A stretch of DNA of 64,000 nucleotides, taken from Verrucomicrobiia bacterium. GTDB taxonomy: Bacteria; Verrucomicrobiota; Verrucomicrobiia; Limisphaerales; CAIMTB01. A program made the translations under genes and the position numbers. The stretch's first letter is position 1. Each line of letters starts with the position of its first letter. The notes under the pieces were generated by a model. That model saw only the letters and a program-made list of their open reading frames with translations, searched no databases and was not told where the DNA came from. Where the stretch lies: assembly GCA_019634625.1 (NCBI GenBank), contig JAHCBA010000015.1, positions 62,001 to 126,000 on the forward strand. The letters run 5' to 3'. Positions 25,122 through 56,739 of the stretch are shown here, piece by piece.

Positions 25122-25560
25122 AGACACCATCAAGAGTTGGACCTGGAGAGTTTCCTGCCCCGCTTCGCCGTCGTGGACACCGCGCGAGAGGCCGACGCCA
25201 AGCGGGCACGTGAGGTGTGCGCCGACGTGCAAGCGGGGGAAATCGTCATATTTGACAAGGCCTACGTCGATTTCCGGCACTTGTGGGACCTCCAGTGCCG
25301 GGGGGTGTTCTGGGTGACGCGAGCCAAGGAGAACATGGGCTGCGAGGTGCAGGAGTCCCTCCCGGTGGCCAGCGGGGCACGAGCGGTCCGGGACGAGTTG
25401 GTGGCGCCCAAGAGCCCGCGTTCGGCGAAGGCGTATCCGGACTTGCTGCGCCGGATCACCGCGTGGGTCGTAGTGGACGGAGGGGATCGGTTAATGACCT
25501 TCCTCACCAATCAAATGGACTGGAGCCCTCAGACCATTGTGGAACTCTACCGACGTGGCC
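25122..25560 (+). pseudogene. IS4-family transposase, internal fragment
   Basis: The central part of a DDE transposase is readable: LDLESFLPRFAVVDTA, then IVIFDKAYVDFRHLWDLQ (second catalytic Asp region), RGVFWVTRAKENM, and TNQMDWSPQTIVELYRRG. The first catalytic Asp region and the C-terminal Y-x2-R-W-x-I-E motif with the catalytic Glu are missing; the sequence becomes unrelated after LYRRG. An in-frame stop lies directly upstream (25119-25121). No terminal inverted repeats were identified. This is a decayed insertion sequence and cannot transpose itself. Confidence 0.85.
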
Positions 25561-25731
25561 AGGGCTTCCTCGACGGTGGTTTCCTCGATCATCCAATCCC
25601 CTCCGGAACGCGTGGGGAAATCGGCGGCCCAAGGGAGCCGGGAAAGGGCGGCGGAGTTTCCAAATCCACGATTCAGAGGCGGGACTTGACAGTATCGACC
25701 TCGGAGAACGAGCCTGAAATCGGCAGGAAGC

Positions 25732-26310
25732 TTGAGCGAGTTCACCCAAATCCTGGAACGTGTGGAACGTGGCGATCCCGAAGCTGCCGCGGGACTTTTC
25801 CCCATCGTTTACGAAGAACTCCGCCGTCTGGCGGCGCAGAAGATGGCCCGTGAAGCCGCTGGCCATACGCTCCAGCCCACCGCCCTCGTCCACGAGGCCT
25901 GGATCCGGTTGGTCGGCGGAGATGCCCCGACGTTTCACAATCGCGCCCATTTCTTCGGTGCGGCTGCCGAGGCGATGCGTCGCATCCTGGTCGAACACGC
26001 CCGGCGAAGGCTGGCCGCCAAACGCGGCGCCGGGATCCAGGTGATCGACCTGGATGGACTCGACCTTCCCACTCCTGTCGCCGCCGACGATCATTTGCTC
26101 GCCGTGAACGAGGCGTTGGAAAAATTCGCCTTGATCGACTCCCGCAAGGCCGAGCTGGTGAAGCTGCGGTACTTCGTCGGCTTGAGCTTCGAGGAAGCCG
26201 CCACGGCCCTGGGCATCGCCGTGCCCACCGCCAAGCAGTGGTGGGCCTACGCTCGGTCCTGGCTCTCGGTCGAGCTCAAGGGTGCCACCGCCGGAAAGCC
26301 ATCCGGCTGA
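25732..26310 (+). CDS. ECF-type RNA polymerase sigma factor (TIGR02999-like)
   Basis: The 192-residue product has the sigma-2 region LFPIVYEELRRLAAQKMARE, the signature LQPTALVHEAWIRLV, FHNRAHFFGAAAEAMRRILVEHARRR, and a sigma-4 helix-turn-helix KLRYFVGLSFEEAATALGIAVPTAKQWWAYARSWL. This subgroup is typically encoded next to Ser/Thr kinases in Verrucomicrobiota, Planctomycetota and Acidobacteriota, as here. The start is a TTG at 25732 preceded by AGGAAG at a good distance. The transposase fragment ends ~170 nt upstream. Confidence 0.92.
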   Translation: MSEFTQILERVERGDPEAAAGLFPIVYEELRRLAAQKMAREAAGHTLQPTALVHEAWIRLVGGDAPTFHNRAHFFGAAAEAMRRILVEHARRRLAAKRGAGIQVIDLDGLDLPTPVAADDHLLAVNEALEKFALIDSRKAELVKLRYFVGLSFEEAATALGIAVPTAKQWWAYARSWLSVELKGATAGKPSG

Positions 26311-26312
26311 GT

Positions 26313-26522
26313 TCAGGCTTGGCGGCCCTTGGGCGTATGCGTGTCCCAAGTGCGCCCGGACTCCGGCTGCACATGGGTGAAGCCGGTGCCCGCCGGCGGG
26401 TTCGGGATGCGGATCAAATGGTCGCAGGCCGGGCACTGAATCTGCCGGCCCGCGTGGCAGGGATCGCACTTCAAGGGCTGATCGCAGTGGGAACAGTAGA
26501 ATTTGAATTCGATGGTGTTCAT
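26313..26522 (-). CDS. 69-aa double zinc-ribbon protein
   Basis: The product starts MNTIEFKFYCSHCDQPLKCD and has two Cys pairs (C-x2-C at 10-13, and C-x2-C in QCPACDHL) plus a central KCDPCHAG, so six Cys and likely one or two zinc sites. It ends in a polar tail (HTPKGRQA). Near-identical small ribbons recur in Verrucomicrobiota genomes. It is convergent with the sigma gene (2 nt between stops) and divergent from the kinase gene, so it is a separate unit nested between the two. The function is unknown; binding of nucleic acid or protein is inferred from the fold. Confidence 0.85.
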   Translation of the reverse strand: MNTIEFKFYCSHCDQPLKCDPCHAGRQIQCPACDHLIRIPNPPAGTGFTHVQPESGRTWDTHTPKGRQA

Positions 26523-26556
26523 GGCCTTCACCAGAGACATGCGTTCATTCGTCTCC

Positions 26557-26587
26557 AAAAGTATGTCGAAAATAACTCCATACTTTT
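26557..26587. promoter_or_regulatory. Inverted repeat between divergent zinc-ribbon and kinase genes
   Basis: AAAAGTATG and CATACTTTT form a perfect 9-bp inverted repeat with a 13-nt AT-rich spacer, in the 94-bp gap between the two start codons. The position suits an operator controlling both directions. The right arm ends in TTTT, so a weak attenuator on the kinase side is an alternative. Confidence 0.5.
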
Positions 26588-26616
26588 CGCCCGGCGGATC
26601 ACGCATGGAGAAACAG

Positions 26617-29600
26617 ATGAACCATTCCACTATGCCATCGCCCCAGGAACGTGAGGCCGCCTTGTTCGCGCTGACCGCCGAGAAGCCCGTCGCCGAACGC
26701 CCGGCCTTTCTGGACGCGGTCTGCGGCCAGGACTCCGCCTTGCGCCAGCGCCTCGAAGCGCTGCTCGCCGCGCACGAGCAGCCAGCCACCGCGCTGGATG
26801 CGCCGACGGTACCCGCCCGCCCCACCCTCAAGCTCGACCTTCCCGAACCGCCCGACGAAGCCGTCGGCCAGACCCTTGGGCGATACAAACTCTTGGAGCG
26901 CGTCGGCGAAGGCGGGTGCGGCGTGGTGTATGTCGCCGAGCAGACCGAGCCGGTGCGGCGGCTCGTGGCGCTGAAGGTCATCAAGCTGGGCATGGACACC
27001 AAGCAGGTGGTGGCGCGGTTTGAGGCCGAGCGGCAGGCGTTGGCAATGATGGATCATCCCAACATCGCCAAGGTGCTGGATGCGGGGACGACCGACGTAG
27101 GTCGCCCCTATTTCGTCATGGAACTGGTGCGCGGCATCCCCATCACCCACTACTGCGACCAGGCCAACCTGAGCACCAAGGAGCGCCTCGACCTGTTCAT
27201 CAAGGTCTGCCAGGCGATTCAGCACGCGCACCAGAAGGGGATCATCCACCGGGACATCAAGCCGTCGAACATCCTGGTGACGCTACATGACGGCGTGCCG
27301 GTGCCCAAGGTGATCGACTTCGGCATCGCCAAGGCGACGGAAGGCCGGCTGACGGACAACACGGTTTACACGCAGTTGCACCAGTTCATCGGCACGCCGG
27401 CTTACATGAGTCCGGAGCAGGCGGAGATGAGCGGGTTGGACATTGATACGCGCTCGGACATCTACAGCCTGGGCGTATTGCTCTACGAACTGCTGGCCGG
27501 CAGCACGCCGTTCGATGCGAAGGAATTGATGTCGCAAGGCATTGATGTGATGCGGAAGACGATCCGGGAGAAGGAACCGCAACGACCCAGCACGCGCCTC
27601 GCAACTCTCGGAGCCGATCAACTCACCACCACGGCCAGACGCCGCTCCGCTGACACCGCGAAGCTGCTCCATCAGCTCAAGGGCGACCTCGATTGGATCG
27701 TGATGAAGTGCCTGGAGAAGGACCGCACCCGGCGCTACGAGTCGGCTAGTGGCTTGGCAGCGGATCTCAAACGTCACTTGGAAAACGAACCGGTGGTCGC
27801 GCGTCCGCCCAGCCAGCTTTACCGCTTTCAGAAAGCCTACCGGCGCAACCGGCTGGCCTTCACGGCGGCGGCCTGCGTGCTGGTGTCACTGGTCGGCGCC
27901 CTGGTGTTCATCGGGATGGCGGCACAACGCGAGGGCCGGGCGCACATGCATGAGTCCATCCAGCGAAACCTGGCGGAGCAGCGGCGACAGGAAGCCGAAG
28001 CCGCGCGGACACTTGCCGAAAACGCCCAGGCCAAGGAGGCGGGCGAACGCCAGCGCGCGGAAGCCAGCGAGCGGGCCACGCGCGAACTGCTCTACTCCGC
28101 CAACATGGGTCTGGCCCAGACGGCCTGGGAAGAAGGCGACATCGGAAGATTGCAGGGTTTGCTCGCGCAGACCCGTGACGATCCCCAGCGAGGATTCGAG
28201 TGGTTCTACTGGGCACGCCAGCTTCATCGCGACTCGCTGACCTTTCGCGAACACCGGGGAGTTCCTCGCAGGCCGGAATTTTCGCCCGACGGACAATGGA
28301 TCGCCAGCAGTGGCGACGACTTACGCTTGAAGATCTGGAGCGCCACGGATGGCCAGGTGCGGCACGATGTGAAGCTCGACCAGTTGTTGTCCGGCCTGGC
28401 TTTCTCTCCGGACGGAGGCCGCCTCGCCACCGCAACCCAGCGGCCGTGGAAGCTGCAACTGTGGGACGCGCTCACCGGTCAGATCCTCCGCGAGATCAAG
28501 GTGGACACCACCAACGCAGTGCGGAATCTGGCCTGGTCGCCGGAGGGTTCGCGCATCATCGGCGTGGACACCCGTGCGGTGTGGCTCTGGGACGCTTCCA
28601 CCAACCAGGAATTGCGTCGCATTACCAACTATCACGGTGAGGCCGTCCTGACCTGGTTCTCGCCCGAAGGCCGGCCTCAGATCGCGGTGCGAGACGAAAC
28701 CGGTTACCAGCTTCAGGACGTTGCCACGGGGGAGGCGTTGGCGCGGTTCGATGCGCCCGGCGCGGTCAGCGAAACGATCTCCCGCGACCTGAGCCGTTTC
28801 GCCGCGTCGGCCGACAATGGCGTCATCAGCCTGTTCGAGGTCCGCACGGGGCGTGAGTTGCGCCAGTGGCGCGGCAGCGAAGGGCCGACGTGGCTGTTGC
28901 GACTGTCCCCCGACGGCAAGTATCTCGCCACCACGGAAGGGAACGGGACCATCCGGCTCCGTGATACCGACTCCGGCGAGGAACTCGGCACGTTGAAAGG
29001 CCATAGCCGGCAAATCTTCGGACTGGCCTTCTCGCCCGACGGCCAAAGGCTGGTGTCCGCGAGCGGCGACGAAACGATCCGGGTTTGGGATTGGCCTGGT
29101 TTGATGGAGCCGGCTTCGTTGTTTGCAAGGCATCCTCGTTTGCAGGTTTTCTTGAGCAGCGATGGCTCCCGGGCGGTCGTCGTGACCAATCGCACACCGG
29201 GGTTCAGGGGCTGGGTCTTTGGCCTTCCCAACCGTCGCAACCCGGATCAGCCGTTTGACGTGGAAGCTCGCGTCGTGGACACCCGCACGGGGCAGACGCA
29301 AGCGGTGCTGCCGGGACTGACCGGCGGGGTCGTGCAGTTCACGCCGGATGGGCGGCGCGTGGCCGGCGTCAGCACCAACCTGTCACGTGCGCAGGTGTGG
29401 GATGCGCTGACGGGTCGTGTATTGGTCACCTTAGATGCAGGGACCAACCTGATCGCCGACTTCAGGCTTTCGCCGGATGGCCGGCAAATCGTCACCGTCG
29501 AACGGCACCCCTCCCAGCTGCTGCCCGATGTGGTGAAGCTCTGGGACTCCATCACTGGGAAGATCCGATTTTCCCTCAAAGAAGTTCCAACACCTGCCAT

Positions 29601-31086
29601 TCCGCTGGCCTTCTCCGCCGACAGCCGAAGGCTCCTGACCGGTGCCCCCTTTGATCCGTTCGCCGTCGTCTGGAACACCATGACCGGACAGGAGGAATCT
29701 CGAATCGAGGCCACGGCCCTTTCAGGAGTCGTTTTCGGTGCGTTCTCGCCCGACGGAGAGCGTGTCATCATGGCCAGCTTCCTGGACGCGATGATGCGGG
29801 TCCGGTCCATGCGATCGCCGGGAGCCGGGACGGATGCCGGATTCGTGCTTCACAGCCGGATCGTCGGTCCAAATCCGGCATTTTCTCCTGATGGTCACCG
29901 CATTCTGTCGGAAACCGAAGATAAGGCGAAGCTTTGGGATGCCGCCACCGGTCGCGAGATGCTGACCTTGAAGACTCCGCCGTATGCGCGTTGCCAGTTC
30001 ACCCCCGATGGCCAGGCGGTCATCAGTGCGCGCCCCGATGGCACCCTCCTCCGGTGGGACATCGCCACGCCGGCCCAGGTCGCCGCGTGGGAGGCGGAGG
30101 AGGACGTCGGAACCCTCCGGAAAATGGCCGCCACGGCACGCAACTCCACCAGTTCGCTGCTGCGTTCACGCCGTTACACGGAACTGGAGACGACCAGTCG
30201 CGAGATGTTGAAGTCGCTACAGACGCGCTCTGGAGCGGAACCAGCGGAGTATGTCGAATTCACACTACGACTCGCCACCGCCCTGCTTTCACATGCTGTT
30301 GAAGCTGACGCCAAAGGCGAAAAGGACCGGGCGGAAACTCTCAAGGTGGAAGCCGGGGAGCTATTGCGCGGTATCGCCAACGAGCGGCTCGACGCTTACC
30401 TGCGGACTGATCCCGGATATGAAATGGGAGATTTCCTGGGGCAGGCGGGACACTGGTCGCAAACCGAAGCGTTCGTGAGGCGAATTAGTGAAACCGTGCC
30501 GACCAACAGCATCCCGTGGAAACTTCGCGCCACGTTGCTGGCCAGGATGGGAAACGAACCGGAATTCGCGAAAGTGCGTGACAACCTGCTCGAACTGCTC
30601 CCCGGACTGACCAACACAGCTCACCTGGCCTGGGGAATCAGAGCCGTGGCGCTCCGACCGCTTGATGCGTCCACAGCGGCGACCGTCGAGCGCCTGGCGA
30701 ACCGGAAGCTCGAGCTGGACCAGGACGAATACTCTGAATCCTGGCTTCCTCTCGCCCAGGCTTTGGCGCGCTATCGGAACAGAGATTTTGCCGGCGCGCT
30801 GACGTCCGTTCAAAAGGCCGCGGCCGCTACCGATCATGCGAGCTTCGAGACGACGCTGCACGCGGTGACAGCGTTGGTCCGCTATCAGCTTGGCCAGCGC
30901 CAGGAAGCCAGCGCCGCACTCAACGACGGCGCAGCGCTGCTGAAAGAGAACTGGTTTTCACCCGAGCGGGGGGCGTTGGAAGGCGACGGGTGGTGGATCG
31001 ACTGGCTCTCCGCCCACATTCTGCTCCAGGAAGCCAGGGAGCTGATCGAGGGACAGCGCACGAATCCTGAGGCACTGAAACCATGA
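26617..31086 (+). CDS. Membrane Ser/Thr protein kinase with WD40-like propeller and C-terminal helical repeats
   Basis: The ATG at 26617 is preceded by GGAG at suitable spacing and gives 1489 residues; 26605 is an alternative. Residues 1-60 are the ...REAALFALTAEKP-AERPAFLDAVC leader typical of these kinases. The kinase domain (~88-370) has GEGGCGVVY, ALKVIK, HRDIKPSNIL (His near 211), DFGIAKA and GTPAYMSPEQ, so it should be active. A membrane helix follows (ACVLVSLVGALVFIGMAA, ~412-434), then a coiled coil and about a dozen WD40-type repeats (LAFSPDGQRLVSASGDETIRVWD and similar). The last ~330 residues are helical, TPR-like. It likely receives signals and acts with the nearby ECF factor. The stop overlaps the next start by 4 nt. 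Confidence 0.92.
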   Translation: MNHSTMPSPQEREAALFALTAEKPVAERPAFLDAVCGQDSALRQRLEALLAAHEQPATALDAPTVPARPTLKLDLPEPPDEAVGQTLGRYKLLERVGEGGCGVVYVAEQTEPVRRLVALKVIKLGMDTKQVVARFEAERQALAMMDHPNIAKVLDAGTTDVGRPYFVMELVRGIPITHYCDQANLSTKERLDLFIKVCQAIQHAHQKGIIHRDIKPSNILVTLHDGVPVPKVIDFGIAKATEGRLTDNTVYTQLHQFIGTPAYMSPEQAEMSGLDIDTRSDIYSLGVLLYELLAGSTPFDAKELMSQGIDVMRKTIREKEPQRPSTRLATLGADQLTTTARRRSADTAKLLHQLKGDLDWIVMKCLEKDRTRRYESASGLAADLKRHLENEPVVARPPSQLYRFQKAYRRNRLAFTAAACVLVSLVGALVFIGMAAQREGRAHMHESIQRNLAEQRRQEAEAARTLAENAQAKEAGERQRAEASERATRELLYSANMGLAQTAWEEGDIGRLQGLLAQTRDDPQRGFEWFYWARQLHRDSLTFREHRGVPRRPEFSPDGQWIASSGDDLRLKIWSATDGQVRHDVKLDQLLSGLAFSPDGGRLATATQRPWKLQLWDALTGQILREIKVDTTNAVRNLAWSPEGSRIIGVDTRAVWLWDASTNQELRRITNYHGEAVLTWFSPEGRPQIAVRDETGYQLQDVATGEALARFDAPGAVSETISRDLSRFAASADNGVISLFEVRTGRELRQWRGSEGPTWLLRLSPDGKYLATTEGNGTIRLRDTDSGEELGTLKGHSRQIFGLAFSPDGQRLVSASGDETIRVWDWPGLMEPASLFARHPRLQVFLSSDGSRAVVVTNRTPGFRGWVFGLPNRRNPDQPFDVEARVVDTRTGQTQAVLPGLTGGVVQFTPDGRRVAGVSTNLSRAQVWDALTGRVLVTLDAGTNLIADFRLSPDGRQIVTVERHPSQLLPDVVKLWDSITGKIRFSLKEVPTPAIPLAFSADSRRLLTGAPFDPFAVVWNTMTGQEESRIEATALSGVVFGAFSPDGERVIMASFLDAMMRVRSMRSPGAGTDAGFVLHSRIVGPNPAFSPDGHRILSETEDKAKLWDAATGREMLTLKTPPYARCQFTPDGQAVISARPDGTLLRWDIATPAQVAAWEAEEDVGTLRKMAATARNSTSSLLRSRRYTELETTSREMLKSLQTRSGAEPAEYVEFTLRLATALLSHAVEADAKGEKDRAETLKVEAGELLRGIANERLDAYLRTDPGYEMGDFLGQAGHWSQTEAFVRRISETVPTNSIPWKLRATLLARMGNEPEFAKVRDNLLELLPGLTNTAHLAWGIRAVALRPLDASTAATVERLANRKLELDQDEYSESWLPLAQALARYRNRDFAGALTSVQKAAAATDHASFETTLHAVTALVRYQLGQRQEASAALNDGAALLKENWFSPERGALEGDGWWIDWLSAHILLQEARELIEGQRTNPEALKP

Positions 31087-31508
31087 ATCCCTCCCGCGAA
31101 GAAGCCCTGTTTGCGTTGGCGCTGGAAAAACTGGCGGAGAAACGCGCCGCCTTTCTGGACGCCATCCGGCTCCTCGAAGACCTCATTGAGAAACAGCGCC
31201 AGGTGCTCGGAAGGCAAGCCGCATACGAGTCGAATCGCGACGCCATGCCGGCGCGATTCGGCTCGACGACGAACGCGCAAACTGCAAACCGCGTGGCGAA
31301 GATGTGCTTGCTGCAGCCGCTGTACGCCGGTCAACGCATGCCGGCCGTGGAACTGGCCGATCATGGCGTCCGACTCGGAGAAAACTCCCAGTCGCTCAGA
31401 TGGTGTCTGTTCGCGCAGTCCCTGGCTCGATACGTCCTGATCGCACACATGCCCCTGCGCGAGGCTGGTGCGCTCATCCCGGGCGATATTGATGAGAGGA
31501 AACCATGA
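31083..31508 (+). pseudogene. Kinase remnant: N-terminal leader joined to a short C-terminal piece
   Basis: The 141-residue frame begins MNPSREEALFALALEKLAEKRAAFLDAI, clearly the same leader as the upstream kinase, then breaks into sequence from the far end of such a protein (LLEDLIEKQRQVLGRQ and QPLYAGQRMPAVELADHG). The whole kinase domain, membrane helix and propeller are absent. It overlaps both neighbours by ATGA, so the coupling geometry of the original tandem kinase array is kept. It may still be translated, but no function is likely. Confidence 0.7.
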
Positions 31509-53938: not shown

Positions 53939-56739
53939 GGCTCGGAGAGTTCGGGATCGGAAGCAGGCGCAATCAGTTCACGAAGTCGCAGGACGGCGGC
54001 CCCGCGCTGCGCGGTGGCCCATGAATCCTCGGGATGGCGAATCAGCCAGCGGTCGAGGCCGCGCAGCGCCCGGCTCCATGCCCCGGTCGCCAGGTCCAAT
54101 CGGATCCGGGCCTGTTCGACTGCGGGATCCTCGGGATGGGCACCTTCCCAGTGCCTCAGGGCGCTGGCGGCGAGATCGTGCTCGCCCAGGGCCAGGGCCA
54201 TGCCGAACCAGGCGCGGCCCTCGATCCCGGACACCTCCGGCGCGCGCAACGCGGTGCCCAGGTGGGTTCGACACGCTTCCCCCGCCGGACCGCCATCGCC
54301 CCCCTCCCGTTCCGCTATTTCGAGGTACGCCACCGCCGCCCGGTAGCGGGCCAACCGGTTCAAGCCCGGCAGAACCGACGCCGAATCCGCGGCGAGTTCG
54401 AAAAGCCCCGCCTGCATTCGAAGCAGCGCCAGCGATCTGGAACCCTCCCGGGGATGCCGCCCATCGAGGGCGTTCCCGGCGAACATCGGCAACAGCGCCT
54501 CCGGATGGTGCCGCCAGCTCTCGCGGACCGTGGCCACACTCCCTTCGACATCGCCCCACAACGGCAGGAGCAGCGCCTGAACCGCCTCGTAGGCCCGGTG
54601 CATCCCCAGCCGCAGACTCGGCAGGGCCGGCACCCGGAAATCCGACAGCGCATGGCGTCGGCCAGGGTCCCGCCGCACCGCCAACATCCCGGCGATGCTC
54701 TCCAGCAACTGCTCGAACGCCGCCGGATCGGTGAGATCTCCCCCCAGCCGCGCCTCGGGGGAATAATGCCGGGCCGCCATCTCCAGAAGCCGCAATCCCT
54801 GCCGCAACCCCGGCAGTAACTCGGCCGGCACCGCATTCGACACCGAACCCAGCAACGCCTCCCCCTCGGCCAGGCGCCCGAACAACGCCAGTTCCGAGGC
54901 CTCGAGATACGTCGCGGTGGGATCCTGCGGAAACAGCGCCTTGAACACACGCAGATGCCCGGCCAGCGCCTCGTGCTGCCCCAGCAGATGTTCAAGACCC
55001 AGACTGTGCCGATGGGCGCCGTGATGAAACGGATTCAGCTCGAGAACCCGGCGGAAGTGAGCCAGCGCCGCCGGGGTCGTCTCCGCCAGCAGACCCAACG
55101 CGAACTCCAGGTCAGCGCCGGTCAACCCGATCGACAGCGCCTCCCGAACCCGCGCCACCCCCTGCTCATGCGTGCCCGGCGAGAACAACTCGAACTCCCC
55201 AACCCGCAACAACACTTCGCCCCGCCGTTCCCCAGGATCCGTGCGCCGCATCAACCGACGCAGTTCGGCCTCCGCCCGGTCCGGTTGCGACAGGACCGTC
55301 CATGCCTCCGCCCGCCGCAATCCCAGCCGGACCGCGTCGCGATACCCCGCCGCCTCCGCCGCCGCCCAACCCTCCAGCGCCTCCTCCCAACGTCCCGTCC
55401 GCGATGCCATCTCCGCCCTCCCCAGCGCATCGTTCGCGACCGCCATCCGTCGGGCGACGTCCCTCTGCACCGCGAGCCCACGGTTCACCGCGAACCCCGC
55501 CGTCCCCACCACCACGACCAGCCCCGCCAAAAGCACCTGGCCCGCATGGCGTCGCGCCCATCGATGCAGAACGAGCAACGGACCCGGACGCCGCGCCTGC
55601 ACCGGGCGCCACTCGAGCGCGGCCCGGAGATCCTCCGCCATGCCCTCCATCGACACATACCGGCGTCCCGGATCCGGATGCATGGCCCGCTCACAGATCG
55701 CCGACAGATCGCGACTGACCCCTCGACACAGCCGCCGCACCGGCTCCGGCGGCCCCGCCACAATGCGTCGCCGCAGTTCCGCCTCGTCCGGCAATCGGCC
55801 CTCCGCATCCGAATAGGGCGGTCGGCCGGTCAACAGGTGGTACAGCATCACCCCCACCGAATAGACATCCACGGTCGCACCCGGACGCCCGGCCGTACCC
55901 GACAACACCTCCGGCGGCGTGAACAGCGTGGTCACCGGCTGACCCGAACGCCGCGTGCTCCATGGGGAACCCCCGACCGACCGACCTGCCTCGGCGCGGT
56001 CCGTTTCCACTCCGGTCGCCACACCGCCCCCCGCGCCGCCGCCGGCCATTCCGTGCCCGGAGCCGGCATGGGCCGAGCCCCAGTCGATCACCCGCACGTC
56101 CCCAAACGCGCCCACCATCACATTGGAAGGTTTCAGATCCCGATGAATCACGCCACGGCTGTGCGCGTGGCCCACGATCTCGCAGACGCGCACCAACAAC
56201 CGCACCGCACCCTCGAGCGTCCAGACCGCCCCATTGCCTGAGGCGACTTCCCGCCACACCCCCTCCAGCGTCGTGTCCGGCAGCCACTCGGTGGTGAAGT
56301 ACAACCGCCCGTCCGGGTCCACCCCCAGGTCGAAAATCGGGAGGACCCCCGGGTGCTGCAGTTGGCTGGCGATCTGCGCCTCGGCCACAAACCGGTCCAG
56401 CGCCGCCTCCTCTTCCGGCGTCGCGCCATGCGCATGGACCCGCTTCATCGCCAGGAACCGCCGCAACTCCCGGTCCCACACCTTCACCACCCACCCCTGG
56501 CCCCCCTTCCCCAGCGACTCGATGACGTCGTACTTCCCAAAGAAGTCCTCCCGACGCCGAAACCCGGGACGTTCAGCCTGGGGCCTCATCCCGCCCTGTT
56601 CACCGGACAACCCGGACTCCTCCAACCCTTCGCCCGCCCCGCCCTCCACACCCAACGCCGTCCCAAGCAAACACCCCGGACATTCCCGGAACGGGTGGTC
56701 CGCCTCCATCTCAGTGCCGCAGGTCTCGCAGGATCTCAT
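53935..56739 (-). CDS. Membrane Ser/Thr protein kinase with N-terminal zinc ribbon and helical C-terminal region
   Basis: The 934-residue product starts MRSCETCGTE, and Cys4/Cys7/Cys20/Cys23 form a zinc ribbon. The kinase domain (~70-380) has LGKGGQGWVVKV, Lys99 in LAMKRV, HRDLKPSNVM with Asp201, and DWG (219-221) in place of DFG, a substitution seen in some active relatives. A membrane helix follows near residue 400 (GQVLLAGLVVVVGTAGFAV), then a long extracytoplasmic TPR-like part (GRWEEALEGWAAAEAAGY and similar). It lies 41 nt downstream of an ECF sigma gene, the usual pairing. The stop overlaps the next gene by 4 nt. Confidence 0.92.
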   Translation of the reverse strand: MRSCETCGTEMEADHPFRECPGCLLGTALGVEGGAGEGLEESGLSGEQGGMRPQAERPGFRRREDFFGKYDVIESLGKGGQGWVVKVWDRELRRFLAMKRVHAHGATPEEEAALDRFVAEAQIASQLQHPGVLPIFDLGVDPDGRLYFTTEWLPDTTLEGVWREVASGNGAVWTLEGAVRLLVRVCEIVGHAHSRGVIHRDLKPSNVMVGAFGDVRVIDWGSAHAGSGHGMAGGGAGGGVATGVETDRAEAGRSVGGSPWSTRRSGQPVTTLFTPPEVLSGTAGRPGATVDVYSVGVMLYHLLTGRPPYSDAEGRLPDEAELRRRIVAGPPEPVRRLCRGVSRDLSAICERAMHPDPGRRYVSMEGMAEDLRAALEWRPVQARRPGPLLVLHRWARRHAGQVLLAGLVVVVGTAGFAVNRGLAVQRDVARRMAVANDALGRAEMASRTGRWEEALEGWAAAEAAGYRDAVRLGLRRAEAWTVLSQPDRAEAELRRLMRRTDPGERRGEVLLRVGEFELFSPGTHEQGVARVREALSIGLTGADLEFALGLLAETTPAALAHFRRVLELNPFHHGAHRHSLGLEHLLGQHEALAGHLRVFKALFPQDPTATYLEASELALFGRLAEGEALLGSVSNAVPAELLPGLRQGLRLLEMAARHYSPEARLGGDLTDPAAFEQLLESIAGMLAVRRDPGRRHALSDFRVPALPSLRLGMHRAYEAVQALLLPLWGDVEGSVATVRESWRHHPEALLPMFAGNALDGRHPREGSRSLALLRMQAGLFELAADSASVLPGLNRLARYRAAVAYLEIAEREGGDGGPAGEACRTHLGTALRAPEVSGIEGRAWFGMALALGEHDLAASALRHWEGAHPEDPAVEQARIRLDLATGAWSRALRGLDRWLIRHPEDSWATAQRGAAVLRLRELIAPASDPELSEP

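Follow-up and report, generated by a model that had tools for sequence, protein, structure and literature searches.

A perfect 9-bp inverted repeat raises the question of how two divergent genes of a Verrucomicrobiia bacterium are controlled. Its arms, AAAAGTATG (26557–26565) and CATACTTTT (26579–26587), are 13 nt apart and lie in a 94-bp gap of the window (the whole stretch of 64,000 nucleotides analysed here), between the start of a zinc-ribbon gene (26522, minus strand) and the ATG of a kinase gene (26617, plus strand). A sequence-only reading of this region had described a perfect repeat, which proved exact, and had taken it for a candidate bidirectional operator, with the small zinc-ribbon protein as its possible regulator. 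Comparison with related loci leads to another answer. The arms are probably the −35 boxes of two promoters that point away from each other and serve the neighbouring, kinase-coupled sigma factor of an ECF43-like type; this assignment of 26557–26587 draws on the exact arms and on the conserved pairs found in relatives.

The inverted repeat and its surroundings

In the genome (6.74 Mb), the exact repeat with a spacer of 10–16 nt is found once, and among the 58 genomes searched with the same spacer range it occurs in two, the genome itself and G055. The latter has two copies with a different core and without the CGCATG box; each is a 30-bp perfect palindrome, AAAAGTATGTCCCGTACGGGACATACTTTT (L058:1339-1368 and L059:5465-5494), whose arm sequence is common to the window repeat. 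The exact repeat was rejected as a regulon marker because of its single genomic occurrence and the absence of CGCATG from the G055 copies.

The repeat also continues outwards, which the sequence-only reading had not noted. Beyond each arm, read in the direction of that arm, comes CGCATG (26543–26538 on the minus strand, 26602–26607 on the plus strand). At further loci with the zinc-ribbon gene, across families, the repeat is conserved. A terminator hairpin might be suggested by the short T run that ends an arm, but the position between divergent starts, the A+T-rich stem and the conserved outer boxes make both a terminator and a chance palindrome barely credible. Chance is further disfavoured by the retention of the repeat in several families and by dinucleotide shuffling of the 94-bp gap, where a perfect inverted repeat of at least 9 bp with a loop of 3–20 nt appeared in only 64 of 20,000 shuffles. 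Both readings were rejected on conservation.

Architecture of the two-box element

In the aligned gaps of relatives, the arms turn out to be upstream boxes within a larger, directional unit, ATACTTTT-N12-GCGCATG, with one unit per direction. The window contains a promoter-like element facing the zinc-ribbon gene (26538–26565, minus strand), consisting of CATACTTTT (26565–26557) and CGCATG (26543–26538) with 14 nt from TACTTT to CGCATG. The promoter-like element facing the kinase gene (26579–26607, plus strand) is composed of the same upstream box, CATACTTTT (26579–26587), and CGCATG (26602–26607); here the spacing is 15 nt, as against 14 nt on the kinase side of the other 14 loci of the same box type (class A, ATACTTT). 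Elements were scored with a leave-one-out matrix at a threshold set by 2,606 background stretches (their 99.9% level). All sites entered the background matrix, and each locus was scored with its own sites, but not those of near relatives, removed. The zinc-ribbon-side element of the window scores 16.9 bits against a background level of 14.2, among the lowest scores of its set. The kinase-side element reaches 27.6 bits when one spacer base is skipped, with a 3-bit penalty included, and is missed, at less than 13 bits, without the skip.

The spacing figures come from 24 of 51 loci, picked for a visible motif, and apply only to loci that bear it. Class A is represented by 15 loci with 30 half-sites; TACTTT and CGCATG are separated by 14 nt in 28 of these, by 15 on the kinase side of the window and by 13 on the zinc-ribbon side of L091. 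One further locus, L105, gave no sensible pair in this analysis and was left out of the 15, while matrix scoring finds a weak pair there. The eight class B loci, with TGATCC or a near variant as the upstream box, have a spacing of 17 nt in all 16 half-sites. The distance between the paired −35 boxes is 16–19 in class A and 19–32 in class B. An operator with dyad symmetry should keep its centre constant and two promoters their internal spacing, so the pattern favours promoters; the contrast is modest within class A alone and is carried by class B.

In the motif-bearing loci, the two boxes keep a nearly fixed spacing, are bound to one orientation and lie upstream of the target start, as is usual for promoters of the ECF type. 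A classical operator, in which a dimeric repressor or activator other than a sigma factor would occupy the central palindrome and govern both genes, is consistent with the perfect dyad between divergent genes and with the nearly constant arm distance of class A (16–19). It is nevertheless unlikely: the arm distance varies, reaching 32 in class B, the conserved unit takes in CGCATG at a near-fixed spacing from each arm, half-elements are found alone and in one direction at other genes, and the sigma factor is the only one of the three cassette proteins with a recognised DNA-binding domain. In the sequences of the 15 class A loci, just 13–15 nt lie between the −10-like box and the zinc-ribbon start, which implies a very short leader for the product of the putative promoter.

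Paired elements beside zinc-ribbon genes

Within the order (320 genomes), 50 genomes contain relatives of the zinc-ribbon protein at E ≤ 1e-12, with 55 matches in total. No relative reaches this threshold in the other four genomes from the genus, which have weaker domain relatives only, and relatives with 72–91% identity are present in other families. A search of named genomes gave 42 zinc-ribbon loci, mostly labelled Verrucomicrobia, Limisphaerales, Verrucomicrobiales or Pedosphaera; one is labelled Akkermansia muciniphila, one ‘bacterium’ and one weak match Prevotellaceae. A DDE transposase remnant (PF01609, 1.9e-10) is located upstream of the sigma gene of the window, at 25137–25610. Together with the lack of a close relative of the zinc-ribbon protein elsewhere in the genus (four other genomes), this remnant hints that the cassette was acquired. 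The genome also contains a truncated copy of the window sigma gene at L009 (G000:C3:59040-62357), 94% identical over residues 1–119 and with a similar upstream flank.

Of the 55 zinc-ribbon loci, 51 were read with their flanks, the window being included as one. The sequence-only reading would have been refuted had the repeat been missing elsewhere beside this gene. According to the leave-one-out matrix, both copies of the element are present at 18 of the 21 loci that combine the zinc-ribbon gene with a divergent kinase; L054 and L056 reach the threshold on a single side and L089 on none. The part of the operator proposal that stands is a conserved control element common to both divergent genes; the classical dyad does not, as the unit is a directional pair of boxes that also occurs singly. 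Zinc-ribbon loci without a detected divergent kinase mostly lack the element (26 of 30). The remaining ones have a single copy (L091) or both (L052, L085 and L101), and in L101 a decayed kinase reading is found at the paired element. A stricter twin pattern matches four of 384 genomes of the class, all within the same order.

The ECF sigma factor and covariation of the upstream box

The gene at 25732–26310 (plus strand) encodes an ECF sigma factor that scores above the curated cut-offs of TIGR02999 (201.7 versus 126.15 bits) and PF07638 (193.9 versus 21.1 bits); a search against PDB sequences gave no match at 0.001. Its region 2.2 reads LQPTALVHEAW, without DxxD, and its recognition helix is GIAVPTAKQWWAYAR. 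The sequence LQ[PA]T[AS]L[VI]HE is present in all sigma rows that cover region 2.2 except own_L010, which is below the TIGR02999 cut-off. The genome has eight sigma genes over this cut-off, several of them adjoining kinases.

According to the accessible parts of two studies (PMC13147305, PMC8999054), ECF43 sigma factors have no acidic motif in region 2.2, typically contain QTTA with a phosphorylated Thr and are activated by a neighbouring kinase; for EcfK, additional phosphosites in the linker are also reported (PMC13147305). In the ECF43/Hanks-type kinase pairs, EcfP–PknT of Vibrio parahaemolyticus and EcfK–PknS of Xanthomonas citri, the sigma gene adjoins a serine/threonine kinase gene, as in the window, and region 2.2 likewise has a conserved Thr and no DxxD, with QTTA in ECF43 and QPTA in the window. 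The kinase neighbour and the region 2.2 motif make the window sigma factor appear ECF43-like, much as in those pairs.

The upstream box changes on both sides of a locus together, and its changes parallel those in the recognition helix of the sigma factor nearby. Class A loci encode the helix A[VI]PTAK[QE]W and class B loci SEPTAKR[WY]W, the latter taken from the complete sigma rows of L054, L056 and L099 and from a fragment in L052. Further variants were recognised by eye: L113, with the helix SAATVKRHW, has GTGAGCCTTTTT (GTGAGCC type) before the kinase, and L116 and L122, with SRSTADRAW, have CTTGAAGC, CGCAT being kept at the −10 position in all three. Seven of the loci detected by the DNA pattern include a sigma gene, and in every one the helix is of class A. 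The link between helix and −35 box draws on few independent changes, because the class A sigma factors form a single clade (97/96). The classes also overlap: L054, with a class B helix, has a TGATACTTTT site too, and one side of L096 and of L102 reads TGATAC.

The paralogue at L007 of the same genome has a near-identical helix, AVPTAKQWM (GIAVPTAKQWMAYAR), and could share the element sites. Its resemblance to the helix of the adjacent sigma factor would also fit a reading in which the elements are promoters of another sigma factor of the genome, such as the L007 paralogue, or of both. This is improbable, as the element recurs beside a sigma gene of the adjacent type in many genomes, and neither a ATACTTTT-GCGCATG element at L007 nor a third exact site in the genome is found. 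The adjacent sigma factor is the preferred candidate for reading the two elements.

Of 11 class A sigma genes inspected, none is preceded by the element, and in L054, L056 and L099 the sigma gene is located downstream of the kinase. By eye, TTGTCA-N16-TATTCT or TATGCT is seen just upstream of the sigma genes in L051 and L094, and TTGACA, without a clear −10 box, precedes the sigma gene of the window at 25686–25691. These sites look like promoters of the housekeeping type, as would suit a sigma factor that is always produced and becomes active later.

Single copies and the extent of a possible regulon

A scan of the 320 genomes of the order with the DNA pattern only gave 27 sites in 22 genomes, compared with one for the reversed pattern. 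Eight of the 27 belong to known pairs, and the remaining 19, in 18 loci, were examined. Of the 14 sites with a 12-nt spacer, ten adjoin a sigma or kinase gene and four, in L168, L172, L174 and L178, do not; none of the five with a 13-nt spacer is clearly beside the cassette. In L162, L163, L175, L183, L180 and L181, one copy lies between the sigma and kinase genes and a zinc-ribbon match is absent; L181 also has what appears to be a decayed left copy. L176 has an element pair with the kinase on one side and no zinc-ribbon match on the other.

Single copies also precede other genes. A copy in L166 precedes an acyltransferase gene that adjoins the sigma gene, the copies in L172 and L174 are located before a PPIase and a Calx-beta protein, respectively, and in L101/L179 a single copy is found ahead of a second kinase. 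In L054 a variant copy, TGATACTTTT...TTTCGCATT, lies ahead of a TonB receptor gene, directly after the sigma gene. Elements that are single, in one orientation and in front of genes are more readily understood as promoters than as halves of an operator.

In the genome itself, the pattern ATACTTT-N12-16-GCGCATG gives no matches, because the window has ACGCATG. The relaxed pattern TACTTT-N13-15-CGCATG finds exactly the two sites of the window and no third exact site. Using the same relaxed pattern, 32 sites were found in 13 of 15 zinc-ribbon-bearing relatives, compared with seven for the reversed control. Half of these (16) belong to known pairs and 16 lie outside them; one of the latter precedes the second kinase of G273, and the remaining ones may well be chance. 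A wider regulon therefore lacks support, given the absence of a third site in the genome and the 16 outside sites against seven in the control. Other TIGR02999 loci of the genome in which a kinase follows closely behind the sigma gene (L002, L005, L006 and L008) have no element recognisable by eye.

The kinase and the zinc-ribbon protein

The kinase gene (26617–31086, plus strand) neighbours the sigma gene, with the zinc-ribbon gene between them; the sigma/kinase pairing recurs in relatives, and the kinase gene matches PF00069 at 8.3e-45. Its product is a serine/threonine protein kinase with C-terminal WD40 repeats, 1489 aa long when counted from the ATG at 26617; the start is uncertain and may be at 26605, 26617 or 26632. 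A short ORF after the kinase gene (31083–31508) starts with MNPSREEALFALALEKLAEKRAAFLDAI, like the N-terminus of these kinases, and has no Pfam match; it may be what is left of a further kinase in tandem. In L086, L088, L094 and L103 a second kinase reading does follow, partial or running off the locus ends. A distant reading of a second kinase domain, 27% identical to the first, is found elsewhere in the window (55546–56541, minus strand).

The zinc-ribbon gene (26313–26522, minus strand) encodes a 69-aa protein with a conserved C-terminal tail, SGxTWxT. In 33 relatives, including the window protein, C10, C13, C30 and C33 of the ribbon and G56, T58 and W59 of the tail are invariant, and S55 and T61 nearly so. 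The model shows a four-strand ribbon and a low-confidence tail (mean pLDDT 68, pTM 0.40). A fold search with it gave no match at E ≤ 0.001; GltJ ZnR (0.33) and ZitP (0.83) ranked first and fourth by E-value, values that give no evidence of membership. The comparison with PDB sequences likewise gave no E-value below 0.077, and among the named zinc-ribbon Pfam families the window protein is below the gathering cut-off, its best score being 17.0 bits versus 27 (Zn_ribbon_3). Its relatives have a best E-value, considered as an E-value alone, of 8.4e-06 (Zn_ribbon_FGT1_2). The ribbons of GltJ ZnR and ZitP are protein-binding domains.

That the zinc-ribbon protein regulates the repeat, as the sequence-only reading had suggested, found no support. 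Autoregulatory binding of the repeat by this protein is brought to mind by the adjacency of its gene and by a weak profile similarity to the transcriptional-regulator zinc ribbon Zn_ribbon_Brz, which for the window protein is below the cut-off. Such binding is very improbable, however. The element exists at loci where no zinc-ribbon match is found (L162, L163, L175, L183 and others) and is missing from most zinc-ribbon loci where no divergent kinase was detected, the upstream box tracks the sigma helix, and the small ribbon has no significant structural match. Since the zinc-ribbon gene has the same promoter-like element as the kinase gene, its product is most simply seen as an output or a feedback partner of the system. 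The threonines of its tail are a possible target of the kinase.

Proposed circuit and relation to known systems

The following circuit is proposed from these comparisons. Twin promoters, the same in sequence with a −35-like ATACTTTT and a −10-like GCGCATG, would both be targets of the RNA polymerase that contains the adjacent ECF sigma factor. The kinase would sense a signal and phosphorylate the sigma factor. Active sigma factor would then drive transcription of the kinase gene, a positive feedback, and of the zinc-ribbon gene, so that the zinc-ribbon protein would be co-expressed with the kinase and would act as an effector or feedback adaptor rather than as a DNA-binding regulator. Several observations count against the promoter reading: the irregular kinase-side spacing and the weak zinc-ribbon-side score in the window, the very short leader, the overlap between the classes, the pair at L176, the class A sigma genes that no element precedes, and the missing or one-sided elements of L089, L054 and L056.

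Autoregulated ECF promoters, such as those of sigma-E and sigma-W, have two boxes read by the cognate sigma factor, and the common type of ECF promoter is GGAAC/GTC. The window resembles them in having two boxes at a near-fixed spacing upstream of regulator genes. The boxes themselves, ATACTTTT/GCGCATG, are unlike the common GGAAC/GTC type, and in the class A loci inspected the genes that would be driven are those of the kinase and the small zinc protein, unlike in autoregulated ECF promoters, and not the sigma gene. Compared with the ECF43 pairs, the window differs in its third, divergent zinc-ribbon gene and its twin identical promoter-like elements, in the WD40 repeats of the kinase and in that a target promoter sequence is proposed. 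The window sigma factor fits the TIGR02999 family (Sig-70_X6), whose model is silent on promoter and partner genes. The literature searched, available in part, describes neither a target promoter for such verrucomicrobial sigma factors nor this element; the main ECF classification work may list a predicted promoter.

A broader picture is more tentative, and somewhat likelier to be wrong than right. It would be a verrucomicrobial, kinase-gated ECF system with two identical promoters, arranged symmetrically and fired by a single sigma factor. The kinase that activates this sigma factor would thereby be produced along with a zinc-ribbon partner dedicated to the system. The partner may be a substrate of the kinase through its SGxTWxT tail, or an anti-sigma factor or adaptor. 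The −35 boxes would co-evolve with the recognition helix, giving natural orthogonal sigma/promoter pairs, and envelope genes (those for the TonB receptor, the acyltransferase, the PPIase and the Calx-beta protein) would be further targets in relatives.

The locus cautions against taking every perfect dyad between divergent genes for an operator, as it may consist of two promoters. The small zinc-ribbon protein is indicated as a third component of the sigma/kinase system. With a promoter sequence and a candidate cognate sigma helix at hand, prediction of the regulon and direct tests become feasible.
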